From: Sphingobacterium athyrii
GTDB taxonomy: Bacteria; Bacteroidota; Bacteroidia; Sphingobacteriales; Sphingobacteriaceae
DNA: 64,000 nucleotides
NCBI RefSeq assembly: GCF_003071065.1
Contig: NZ_QCXX01000001.1
Span: 186,001-250,000 of the forward strand
Reading direction: 5' to 3'
Positions 40,218 through 45,388 of this stretch are shown here, piece by piece. Numbering within the stretch: position 1 is the first letter of the stretch; the number at the start of each line of letters is the position of its first letter. Under the pieces are notes generated by a model, which did no database searches, was not told where the DNA came from, and saw nothing but the letters and a program-made list of their open reading frames with translations. Made by a program: the position numbers and the translations under genes.

Positions 40218-40916
40218 TTAGGATTTATGCTTTTTCTTAAATTTTAACATCCAGTCATAAATCGCATCATCGTGAAATAAACGTTCGACACTGCCGTGCG
40301 TCCCGCCTTTGATCACATTTAAGCTCACATCAGCATCGGGATCGGCCTTTTTTATGGCATTCATAATTTTTTTGGACTCTGAAATTGGTACAGCACGATC
40401 AGCCGTTCCGTGATGCAACCAAATTGGCACCTGGCTCAGGTTGGAAGCATATTGACTCGATCCACCCCCACAAATCGCCACGGCCGCCGCAATACGGTCC
40501 GGATATTTTCCGGCAACATCCATGGTACCATAGCCTCCCATACTCATTCCACATACATAAATACGATCAGGATCAGCATGATAATGTGCGATAACATAAT
40601 CTATAATTTCGATCACTTTATCCGGATCCCAACCGCCGCGGGATTGGGGAGCGACAATAATTCCGGGCACCTCCTGCCCCTTATTGATTGCATATAACAC
40701 CCCATAGCGTTTGACGCGATCTAAATTTGTACCCGATAAGCTCCGCCCATGCAAAAACACAAAAACAGGCTGCTTTTCAGATTCCGCAGTATCCCTATCG
40801 GCATCTTTCAATAAAAAAGGATAAGCAGTTTCCCCTTTGATTGCTTGTATCTCCTGTGCATTTAACTTCGTAAAAAACAGAAAGAAAACACATAAACAGA
40901 GGTAAATTTTACGCAT
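40218..40916 (-). CDS. Secreted alpha/beta hydrolase (esterase/PHB-depolymerase-like)
   Basis: A 232-residue exported hydrolase. The signal peptide is MRKIYLCLCVFFLFFTKLNA-Q. The catalytic triad is visible: Ser in GMSMGGYG, Asp in HGTADRAVPISE, His in GGTHGSVERLF; the oxyanion strand is FVFLHGRSLSG. It resembles the small esterase/PHB-depolymerase-like hydrolases that act on acyl or feruloyl esters in polysaccharides. The gene stands alone, divergent from sbcD, with the 50-bp palindrome in the shared upstream region. Confidence 0.88.
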   Translation of the reverse strand: MRKIYLCLCVFFLFFTKLNAQEIQAIKGETAYPFLLKDADRDTAESEKQPVFVFLHGRSLSGTNLDRVKRYGVLYAINKGQEVPGIIVAPQSRGGWDPDKVIEIIDYVIAHYHADPDRIYVCGMSMGGYGTMDVAGKYPDRIAAAVAICGGGSSQYASNLSQVPIWLHHGTADRAVPISESKKIMNAIKKADPDADVSLNVIKGGTHGSVERLFHDDAIYDWMLKFKKKHKS

Positions 40917-41051: not shown

Positions 41052-41101
41052 ATAAATTTAGACGGATATGCAATTATAATTGCATATCCGTCTAAATTTA
41101 T
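41052..41101. repeat. Perfect 50-bp palindrome upstream of sbcDC
   Basis: Bases 41052-41101 equal their own reverse complement with no spacer and no mismatch (25 bp per arm; half-site core ATTTAGACGGATATGCAATT). It sits in the divergent space between the esterase and sbcD genes, 38 bp before the sbcD start, so it is not a terminator. A near-consensus -7 element TTAGTTTG (41103-41110) abuts its right end, with TTG at 41080-41082 inside the right arm at a 20-bp spacing, so the palindrome overlaps the likely sbcD promoter. Confidence 0.95.
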
Positions 41102-41139
41102 CTTAGTTTGTACTATCTGGTAAAAATTAAGGGCTCATC

Positions 41140-42345
41140 ATGAAAATACTTCATACTGCCGATTGGCATTTAGGAAAGCGATTGGACAGCTTTTCCCGCA
41201 TGGATGAACAACACTTGGTCATGGAAGAGATTATCCAAATAGCTGATCAACAAGAGGTGGATCTGGTGCTTATTGCTGGTGACCTTTTCGACAGCTTCAA
41301 TCCCGGTGTAGAAGCCATCGAGCTCTTTTACAAAACCATCAAGCGACTGGCAAAAAATGGTATGCGCCCTGTAATCGCCATTGCCGGGAACCACGATTCG
41401 CCGAATCTGATCGACGCACCGGATCCCTTAGCCCGTGCATCGGGCATTATCCTTATCGGTCATCCCAATGCACTTGTTACACCATTTACTACCGAAGGTT
41501 TCACTATCACCCACAAGGACAAGGGTTTTATCGAGCTTCATATTGACCGCCACGACTATCCTATCCGAATACTCCACACAGCTTATGCCAACGAGATCCG
41601 GCTCAAACAATACCTCGGCGAAGAGAAAGAAGTTCAATTAAATAGAGCGCTCGCAGAAAATTGGCGAAAGCTGGCTGAAGCTTATTGTGACGACAGGGGT
41701 GTCAATATTCTGACGGCACACCTCTATATGAATAAAATTGGCACCCCGCTGATCGAAGAGCCTGATGGAGAAAAACCCATTAAAATCGGAAATGCTGACC
41801 TGATTTATTCCGAATCTATCCCCGATCAGATTCAGTATACGGCTTTGGGCCATATCCACGGATTCAAAAATATCGGTTCCACGCAAAAGCCTGTTGTATA
41901 CGCTTCATCACCGCTTTGCTATAGTTTTGCTGAAGCGGGACAGACAAAGTATGTGAACATCGTCAATGCTGTACCTGGCGAAGACGTCACATACGACCAA
42001 ATTGCACTCCGTCAGGGAAAATCACTGGTCCGAAAATCATTTACGGATATTGGCCAATGTATCACCTGGCTGTCCGAAAATCCCGAAACATTCGTGGAGT
42101 TAACGCTAAAATCGCAAACATTCCTGAAAGCTGAGGACCGTAAACTGATTTACCAGACGCATTCAGGAATCGTCTATTTAATCCCTGTTGTTCAACATGA
42201 TCAACAAAATACGCTGGATAAAAAAGAAATTAATCTGACCCAAGATATCGCCACGCTCTTTACCGATTATTTCAAATCCAAAAATGCCAACCAGGCGCCC
42301 AATGAAGACATTCTTAACCTCTTTCGCGAAATATTAAATTCTTAA
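41140..42345 (+). CDS. sbcD: Exonuclease SbcCD subunit D (Mre11-like nuclease)
   Basis: The nuclease subunit of SbcCD, which cuts hairpins, palindromic DNA and protein-blocked ends. The 401-residue protein shows the metallophosphoesterase motifs in order: TADWHLGKRL (residues 6-15), AGDLFDSFNPG, IAGNHDSPNL, an internal His in LTAHLYMNKIGTP, and LGHIHGFKN. It is followed 4 bp later by sbcC, so the two are translationally coupled. A perfect 50-bp palindrome lies just upstream, which is striking because palindromes are the enzyme's own substrate. Confidence 0.98.
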   Translation: MKILHTADWHLGKRLDSFSRMDEQHLVMEEIIQIADQQEVDLVLIAGDLFDSFNPGVEAIELFYKTIKRLAKNGMRPVIAIAGNHDSPNLIDAPDPLARASGIILIGHPNALVTPFTTEGFTITHKDKGFIELHIDRHDYPIRILHTAYANEIRLKQYLGEEKEVQLNRALAENWRKLAEAYCDDRGVNILTAHLYMNKIGTPLIEEPDGEKPIKIGNADLIYSESIPDQIQYTALGHIHGFKNIGSTQKPVVYASSPLCYSFAEAGQTKYVNIVNAVPGEDVTYDQIALRQGKSLVRKSFTDIGQCITWLSENPETFVELTLKSQTFLKAEDRKLIYQTHSGIVYLIPVVQHDQQNTLDKKEINLTQDIATLFTDYFKSKNANQAPNEDILNLFREILNS

Positions 42346-42349
42346 GCCC

Positions 42350-45300
42350 ATGATCCCTTTAAAGTTAATTGTAGAAGGTATATATTCATACCAGGAACGT
42401 CAGACAATAGATTTCTCGGCATTGACAGAAACTGGCCTTTTTGGGATCTTTGGCGCTGTCGGTTCCGGAAAATCTTCAATTTTGGAAGCAATTACCTATG
42501 CCTTATATGGCGAAACGGAGCGATTAAATGCACGGGATAAACGTGCTTATAATATGATGAACCTCAAATCAAACCGTTCGTATATCGAATTGGATTTCAT
42601 TAATTTCGAAAACCGCAGGTTCAGGGCCACCCGGGAATTTAAACGAAACTCCAAAAATTTTGAGGATGTCAAATCGCCAACGGTAGTATTATACGAAAAC
42701 ATTAATGAAGAATGGATTCCGCTGGAAAGCAGTAACGTACAACCTATCATAGGATTAAGCTACGAAAATTTCAAAAGAACCATCATTATCCCCCAAGGAC
42801 AGTTTAAGGAATTTATTGAACTGGGTGCAAAAGAACGCACCGATATGATGAAGGAAATCTTTCAGCTCCATCGCTTCGACCTGCAGGACAAAGTCGCTAC
42901 GTTATATAAAAAAAACCAATCCGAGCTGGATCAGCTCAACGGTCAATTGATCGGTTTCGAAGAGATCAACGGCGACCGCATCCAGGCAATGCAGGACAAG
43001 TTGCTTGAAGAACGTAAATCTTTCATCCAGGTGCAAGATAGCAACACGATCCTTCTGGAGAAATTCCAGGCCCTTAAAAATCTGAAAGAAGATTTTCTGG
43101 AATTGCATAAAATGAAGACGCGATTTCAGCAGCTGACAAACCAGCGGGCAGAAAAAGAACATTTACGTCAGCGCATGATACGCTTTGAAGAGGCCTGGAC
43201 AAATTTCTACCATATCCTCCAGGCACAGGAGAAATTGAGGCAGGAACAAGTTCACGAACAGGGCAGGCTGCAGCACGAAGAAACGAAAGCCAATGAAATC
43301 CAAAAGCTTACCCAACAGTTGTCGCTGCAACTCCAACAGATTAGACCCCAGTACGACCGCTTAGCAGAACGGCGAATAAGTGAACTGGATCTGGAGCTCA
43401 TTCTGCAGCTGATCCAGTTTTCAGCAGAAATAAAAGTTTTAAAAGAAAGTGCTGAGAAAGGGCGAAACTTTGTCCTGGAGACCAAAGAGCAGCAGACGCA
43501 ATGCAAAATCAGCATCCGAGATACAGAAGCCTTGCTCCTTGATCTAAAACAATCGCGACCATCGGCCAATGAACTGATGGAACTGGGCCAGTGGTATACT
43601 CAGCAACAGTCTATCCTTCAGCGAGAGGTTGAACTCCATCAGCAACTTCTTGAACTGGAGACCGCAATAGCTGACCTGAAAAACAACTTGCTGAGCTGCG
43701 GATTTGATGCCCTCGAATTTGAATCCAAGTATAACAGTGAATTACGAACGCTTGAAAGCAGACTTACCAAACTAAACGACGAGAAAGCACATCTTTTGTT
43801 ACAGCAGAAGCTGACACAATTTGCTGAGAATCTAAGTGCGGGTTCCCCCTGCCCTTTATGTGGAGCGCTAGAACACCCGGCCATCGCTGAGCATATGGAC
43901 ATTAGCCAGGAGCTCGCCGATAATCAAAAGGCGATCACGGAAATTACTGCAAGTATAAAATCCAGGACTGATCAAAAATTCGAATTCGAAAAACTCCTGC
44001 TCCAACTGCAGTCGCTAGAAGCCCAGAAAAATGACCTTAATGTAAAAAGTCAGGTAAACGAATCCCTTAAATCCAGCCACCTGCTTCAATTTACCTGGAC
44101 AGATTACAGCAGTACAGATACGTCAATTTATACACAAAAAAAACAAGAACTTACCAAGATTGAAACCCAGATCGTAGCGACGGAACACATGCTGACCAAC
44201 CACCAGCTGGTCTTGGTCGATATTGAGAAGAAGCTTGAAAGGGCTAACAAAAGACTAAATGAGCTAGAAGTTGATGAAGTGCGAAAACAAACTCAGATCA
44301 ACCAAAATATGGGCCATTTAAAACATTTGAAATGGTCAGATTACCAGTCTTTGGAACAGACGTCCATCGAAAGTGAGTACAAGACGCTGAAAGCAGAAAA
44401 CCTGCAGATAGAACAGCATTTTAATACCTTAACGGAGCAGTTAAATGGATTAAACAGCCAATTTGCAGCACAAAATAGCTTGGTACAAGCTATTCTTGAA
44501 AGGATTGACAAAATAAAAGCTGAGGCCCTTCAAACCGAGACCACGCTTGGGCAACTGCTACAGACTTCTACATTTGACACAATAGATCAGGTCAAAGAGA
44601 CTTTGGCGGAGAACCTTCCTGTACAACAGATCCGGGCAGAACTGGAACAGTTTCAGATCCAGTTTGAAACCCTCAAAGCCCAAATAGCGCAGCTGGACAA
44701 AAAGCTTACAGATCAAGTTTACGACGAGGAAGCTTTCATCGCGCAGGAGAATGCTTTGAAAGAAAGCTCCCATCAGCTAAAAGTGCTCACAGAGAATGTT
44801 GCCAAATACGAGCAGGAGCTGCATCAGCTGGAAACTGCTTATAAGAAAAAGGAGGTTTTACTTCAACAACAAGCAACGTTAAACTTGCGTAATGACAATC
44901 TAAAACAGCTCTTTAACCTCTTTAAGGGTGCAGGATTTGTGCAATATGTATCTTCGATCTATTTACGTCAGCTCTGCGATCATGCGAATATCCGCTTTCA
45001 CCGCATGACCCGCAACCAACTGAGTCTACAGATCAATGAAAACAATGAGTTTGAAATCATAGACTATCTGAATGAAGGAAAAAGCCGGAGTGTTAAGACA
45101 CTCTCCGGGGGGCAAGCTTTTCAGGTGTCATTGAGTCTGGCCCTGGCCCTGGCCGAAAGTGTACAATCCAATACCAAAGCCACAAAAAATTTCTTTTTTA
45201 TTGACGAAGGTTTTGGCACCCAAGACATCGCATCCGTCAATATCGTCTTTGAGACCTTACTTGATCTTCAAAAAGAAAATCGGATCGTAGGTATTATCTC

Positions 45301-45388
45301 CCACGTGGAAGAGTTGAAAGAACGGATTCCACTATCACTTTCCATAGAAAAAGATGAAGAACGGGGCAGTCAAATTTTTATCAATTAA
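42350..45388 (+). CDS. sbcC: Exonuclease SbcCD subunit C (Rad50-like ATPase)
   Basis: The ATPase and tether subunit of SbcCD. The 1012-residue SMC-type protein has Walker A GAVGSGKSS (residues 35-43), a long coiled coil rich in Gln/Glu/Leu, the zinc hook CPLC (Cys501 and Cys504), the returning coiled coil, the signature LSGGQAFQVSLSLALALAE and Walker B FFFIDEGFG. The zinc hook lies exactly at mid-chain, as expected. It pairs with sbcD directly upstream and no other gene is clearly in the operon. Confidence 0.97.
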   Translation: MIPLKLIVEGIYSYQERQTIDFSALTETGLFGIFGAVGSGKSSILEAITYALYGETERLNARDKRAYNMMNLKSNRSYIELDFINFENRRFRATREFKRNSKNFEDVKSPTVVLYENINEEWIPLESSNVQPIIGLSYENFKRTIIIPQGQFKEFIELGAKERTDMMKEIFQLHRFDLQDKVATLYKKNQSELDQLNGQLIGFEEINGDRIQAMQDKLLEERKSFIQVQDSNTILLEKFQALKNLKEDFLELHKMKTRFQQLTNQRAEKEHLRQRMIRFEEAWTNFYHILQAQEKLRQEQVHEQGRLQHEETKANEIQKLTQQLSLQLQQIRPQYDRLAERRISELDLELILQLIQFSAEIKVLKESAEKGRNFVLETKEQQTQCKISIRDTEALLLDLKQSRPSANELMELGQWYTQQQSILQREVELHQQLLELETAIADLKNNLLSCGFDALEFESKYNSELRTLESRLTKLNDEKAHLLLQQKLTQFAENLSAGSPCPLCGALEHPAIAEHMDISQELADNQKAITEITASIKSRTDQKFEFEKLLLQLQSLEAQKNDLNVKSQVNESLKSSHLLQFTWTDYSSTDTSIYTQKKQELTKIETQIVATEHMLTNHQLVLVDIEKKLERANKRLNELEVDEVRKQTQINQNMGHLKHLKWSDYQSLEQTSIESEYKTLKAENLQIEQHFNTLTEQLNGLNSQFAAQNSLVQAILERIDKIKAEALQTETTLGQLLQTSTFDTIDQVKETLAENLPVQQIRAELEQFQIQFETLKAQIAQLDKKLTDQVYDEEAFIAQENALKESSHQLKVLTENVAKYEQELHQLETAYKKKEVLLQQQATLNLRNDNLKQLFNLFKGAGFVQYVSSIYLRQLCDHANIRFHRMTRNQLSLQINENNEFEIIDYLNEGKSRSVKTLSGGQAFQVSLSLALALAESVQSNTKATKNFFFIDEGFGTQDIASVNIVFETLLDLQKENRIVGIISHVEELKERIPLSLSIEKDEERGSQIFIN

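Follow-up and report, generated by a model that had tools for sequence, protein, structure and literature searches.

The window analysed here, a 64,000-nucleotide stretch of the Sphingobacterium athyrii genome, contains the two genes for SbcCD, a hairpin-cutting nuclease. Specifically, sbcD (41140–42345, plus strand; 401 aa, TIGR00619 above the cut-off) is followed by sbcC (42350–45388, plus strand; 1012 aa, with AAA_23 and SbcC_Walker_B domains), and the divergent gene on the other side (40218–40916, minus strand) is assigned by gene call and domains to the esterase-like alpha/beta hydrolases and is not a regulator. The gap between the hydrolase and sbcD holds a perfect 50-bp palindrome at 41052–41101, assigned to neither strand, which starts 135 bp from the hydrolase start and whose right end is 38 bp from the start of sbcD at 41140; with the hydrolase and sbcDC as its neighbours, no regulator gene lies beside it. 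Comparison of the left arm (41052–41076, likewise strandless) with the right arm (41077–41101, plus strand) confirms the spacerless palindrome reported in the initial annotation, the arms being 25+25 bp, 100% complementary, without mismatch and with a gap of 0 nt. The predicted fold of a palindrome strand is a 23-bp hairpin of -22.6 kcal/mol (z -12). At 41% GC, a 6.85-Mb genome would contain about 1e-8 palindromes of this kind by chance, and a chance origin, already thought very improbable, is therefore ruled out. The full 50-bp sequence is present in one copy in the genome and its remaining matches are weak, which rejects a repeated element, REP or MITE as its identity.

Promoters of Bacteroidota are characterized by a -7 element TAnnTTTG and a TTTG (or TTG) near -33 (PMC7366714, PMC9723704). 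On the basis of conservation and this consensus, a putative promoter can be placed at 41080–41110 on the plus strand, in which a TTG at 41080–41082, within the right arm, is separated by a 20-nt spacer from TTAGTTTG at 41103–41110, matching the consensus with one departure; alternatively, the -7 element may be read as TATCTTAG at 41099–41106. The predicted transcription start would be near 41117. The -7 region and the stretch AAATTTATCTTAGTTTGTA are nearly invariant across 22 close Sphingobacterium genomes. We infer that sbcDC has a Bacteroidota-type promoter that overlaps the right arm of the palindrome. The promoter previously suggested at this position thus stands as an overlap with a putative sbcDC promoter of the Bacteroidota type, whereas a scan of the region gave no promoter of the E. 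coli sigma-70 type. Additionally, TAGTTTGT at 41104–41111 also matches TAnnTTGY, the -7 box of the alternative promoter class SM5 in Flavobacterium psychrophilum (PMC9723704). A symmetric divergent promoter was rejected, because the -7 region falls beyond the right end of the palindrome and is not mirrored on the left side. An intrinsic terminator was rejected as well, in agreement with the initial annotation: the hydrolase (minus) and sbcD (plus) diverge, and the weak T tail, TCTTAGTTTG, coincides with the -7 region of the promoter.

A search for SbcD covered 94 genomes of the genus Sphingobacterium, and the region upstream of sbcD was compared in the 22 close genomes. Five species, referred to as clade A (S. 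athyrii, S. puteale, S. prati, sp. HMA12 and one metagenome bin), carry the identical 50-bp palindrome, and five others, clade B (S. detergens, sp. GVS05A, sp. CZ-UAM and two more), carry a palindrome at the same site with a different arm, ATAAATTTGGTCTGATATGCAATTA. The mirror is perfect over at least 46 bp in nine of these ten species, sp. CZ-UAM having two internal mismatches, and an eleventh species (L057) shows a partial mirror with 15-bp arms around an altered 6-nt centre. The remaining 11 of the 22, including S. multivorum, S. siyangense and sp. N143, have the right arm and the promoter without the mirror. The right arm, which bears the -33 side of the putative promoter, is therefore conserved across all 22 close relatives, and the left arm is retained in the palindromic species only, having diverged in the other 11. 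Nearly all 22 also share, with or without the long palindrome, a 12-bp core palindrome, CAATTATAATTG, at 41071–41082 (no strand assigned). A decayed mirror in the left arm gave a weak signal in two of the 11 non-palindromic species (p 0.016–0.024) and was not significant in the rest. Clades A and B are grouped in the sbcD tree, and L057 sits beside the S. multivorum group with moderate support (90/87); the sequences would fit either an older palindrome that decayed twice or a palindrome that arose twice.

Farther away, inverted repeats with perfect arms longer than 9 bp are missing upstream of sbcD in about a dozen more distant members of Sphingobacterium and in 50 sbcD upstream regions from other Bacteroidota, the one exception being Bacteroidetes bacterium 43-16, with an unrelated 15-bp repeat (loop of 4 nt) about 107 bp upstream of sbcD. 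None of the 50 regions has a palindrome of the S. athyrii kind, and a general association between the palindrome and sbcD was rejected. Throughout the 94 genomes, the sbcD copy is the only exact match to the palindrome motif, and matches with one or two mismatches are at about control level. The motif being found nowhere else, there is no sign of a regulon. In one of the Sphingobacterium genomes, the SbcD match (G038:C1:3215811-3216921) consists of several pieces interrupted by stops, as would be seen for a broken gene or a faulty sequence.

Clades A and B differ at positions 9, 11 and 13 of the arm (numbered from the outer end), and each is changed on both arms; sp. CZ-UAM (L030) contributes a further pair with changes on both sides, bringing the total to four. 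In a covariation test, 96.5% of pair cells are intact with four pairs changed on both sides, compared with 20–40% and zero to one such pair for structures slid by 1–3 columns, figures to be read in the light of only five distinct rows and of slid controls that favour the true register by construction. The three symmetrically changed positions are clustered between invariant blocks. The inner 24 bp, GATATGCAATTATAATTGCATATC, are invariant in clades A and B except for one change in L030, and their outer 9+9 bp recur in L057 around a different centre. At 41089–41093 and in the left-arm mirror of this segment, clade A CGTCT is almost the reverse complement of clade B AGACC, as would result from inversion of a 5-bp stem segment. 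In the five clade A species both arms are unchanged, while the upstream flank deviates at about 12% of positions (mean consensus identity 0.876 versus 1.0) and sbcD differs at 9–20% of its third codon positions. The comparison indicates that the arm symmetry is actively maintained, because the changes between clades A and B are symmetric although the third codon positions of sbcD differ by 42–45%. A palindrome conserved with changing sequence, the pattern that the initial annotation had named as support for a structural role, is thus what is seen within these ten species.

Palindromes elsewhere in the same genome, surveyed over 1.6 of its 6.85 Mb, put these observations in context. Five gapless perfect palindromes with arms of at least 23 bp (34, 27, 25, 24 and 23 bp) occur in the 1.6 Mb, at least three of which read as terminators, and most of the palindromes surveyed lie in convergent or co-directional gaps and are terminator-like. 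The longest, at 68 bp (C1:649488-649555), is perfect and gapless, lies in a convergent gap and reads as a bidirectional terminator. In divergent gaps, only two inverted repeats with a gap of 0–1 and arms of about 16 bp or more were present, the sbcD palindrome and C1:640354-640401. Perfect palindromes are therefore not rare in this genome, but one on a promoter is. The palindrome at C1:640354-640401, which is perfect, gapless and 48 bp long, overlaps the beginning of a TetR-family gene. Each of its arms contains a -7-like box, TAATTTTG, and it resembles a TetR operator combined with symmetric divergent promoters; its core, TTAGAACAATTGTTCTAA, recurs at other sites in other Sphingobacterium species.

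Among orthologous palindromes in S. prati and S. detergens, compensated paired changes are widespread, as at the sbcD palindrome. Most of these comparison palindromes are probably terminators, and would therefore themselves be selected as hairpins. A 32-bp perfect palindrome at C1:379533-379564 lies inside a coding gene of the TMP-TENI type (thiE-like, thiamine-phosphate-synthase-like), and it too shows paired third-position changes, one pair being G-C in S. athyrii, C-G in S. prati and A-T in S. detergens. This coding palindrome would favour a general copying process, as a single example with near-saturated third positions in which chance is possible.

We propose, with a probability of roughly 45%, that the palindrome is a promoter arm that was mirrored and homogenised by template switching and has no dedicated function. 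The functional sequence would be the right arm, which forms the upstream half of the sbcDC promoter and adjoins the conserved 12-bp core. In one Sphingobacterium clade, the left side would have been converted into a reverse-complement copy of the right arm, and the most likely mechanism is replication template switching starting at the core, which is a plausible site for fold-back of the nascent strand. Repeated copying from arm to arm would then restore complementarity when either arm changes, such that the palindrome would be mainly the product of a mutational process acting on a constrained promoter, possibly with a mild effect on promoter strength and without a dedicated SbcCD sensor. The conservation of the right arm and the -7 region in 22 of 22 close relatives, including the 11 in which the left arm does not mirror it, argues for this reading, and changed positions between invariant blocks are expected under it because the bases would be copied, not recognised. 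On the other hand, the strong maintenance of the arms in clade A speaks against it, since selection would explain that maintenance equally well.

Precedent for such a process comes from E. coli, in which template switching is established to turn quasipalindromes perfect (PMC7202029); it has also been put forward to explain multi-base compensatory changes, and it can generate stems and keep them intact (PMC8794818). The sbcD palindrome resembles the E. coli quasipalindrome sites, studied in reporters and at the thyA hotspot (PMC7202029), in that the arms of an inverted repeat become perfect copies and paired multi-base changes separate relatives, but it is seen here solely as an evolutionary pattern at a promoter.

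Less probable, at appreciably under even odds but ahead of the other rivals, is an operator, in which a homodimeric transcription factor encoded elsewhere would bind the inner 24 bp over the -33 element and repress sbcDC. The near invariance of these 24 bp in clades A and B, the recurrence of their outer 9+9 bp in L057 and the location over the -33 region, which suits repression, are all consistent with such a site, and the TetR-linked 48-bp palindrome indicates that long perfect operator-like sites occur in this genome. The two palindromes are alike in being perfect, gapless and about 50 bp long and in lying between divergent genes, where they overlap promoter elements; however, C1:640354-640401 lies beside its own TetR gene, keeps its sequence and has a core that recurs elsewhere in other species, whereas the sbcD palindrome has no adjoining regulator, varies in sequence between clades and is single-copy. 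The lack of a second exact site in 94 genomes, with near matches at about control level, and absence from 11 of 22 relatives that retain the promoter also argue against an operator, and a symmetry of 50 bp exceeds the need of one dimer. Moreover, a base-reading protein would resist change at the bases it reads and would not enforce symmetry elsewhere, so that symmetric changes at arm positions 9–13 are unexpected for bases that no protein reads. Symmetric changes between invariant blocks therefore fit arm-to-arm copying or a structural need better than a sequence-reading dimer.

A structural need could arise if the palindrome served as a sensor, its hairpin or cruciform hiding the promoter, or SbcCD binding or cutting it, with negative feedback on the SbcCD level as the outcome. 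We consider this unlikely, and slightly more so the fuller version in which, in one Sphingobacterium clade, a palindrome selected as a hairpin or cruciform on the sbcDC promoter is bound or processed by SbcCD and lets the nuclease gauge its own activity. A sensor would account for the remarkable neighbourhood of the palindrome, as SbcCD cuts hairpins, and the predicted hairpin is strong and is preserved by the paired changes; yet cutting the sbcDC promoter would break the chromosome. Palindromes with an AT-rich centre are the sole kind detected as cruciforms in E. coli cells, but in the same organism even a 460-bp palindrome is cleaved by SbcCD in a replication-dependent manner and not through cruciforms (PMC4245961). 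The sbcD palindrome shares with that substrate perfect symmetry, the capacity to form a hairpin and the association with SbcCD as a hairpin nuclease, and differs in being 50 rather than 460 bp long and in that cleavage there is replication dependent, not regulatory (PMC4245961). The specific link to SbcCD advanced in the initial annotation is not borne out by the comparison: the occurrence of the palindrome does not track that of sbcD from lineage to lineage, with 11 of the 22 close relatives and all 50 of the other Bacteroidota sampled lacking it, and similar palindromes with compensated changes are common at unrelated genes in the genome. In the literature searched at title and abstract level, we found no earlier report of a palindromic sbcDC promoter or of such regulation of the sbcDC operon or SbcCD.

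Least likely of the explanations, and very improbable, is an RNA element in which a transcript from an upstream or antisense start would cross the palindrome and form an attenuator or terminator hairpin: a terminator-like pattern is called on the plus strand and the fold is very stable, but the weak T tail is the conserved -7 region, the flanking genes diverge, and no Rfam family reaches the gathering score, the sub-threshold microRNA matches merely reflecting a perfect hairpin.

Taken together, these comparisons point to a real, maintained and clade-specific palindrome on the sbcDC promoter, for which a link to SbcCD is possible and suggestive but unsupported by the comparative data. The locus represents a natural case in which a long perfect promoter palindrome stays perfect while its letters change, directly ahead of the genes of a hairpin nuclease. 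If the palindrome is merely a copied mirror, it illustrates the power of template switching to shape promoters; if it is under selection, it would tie SbcCD expression directly to DNA hairpins.
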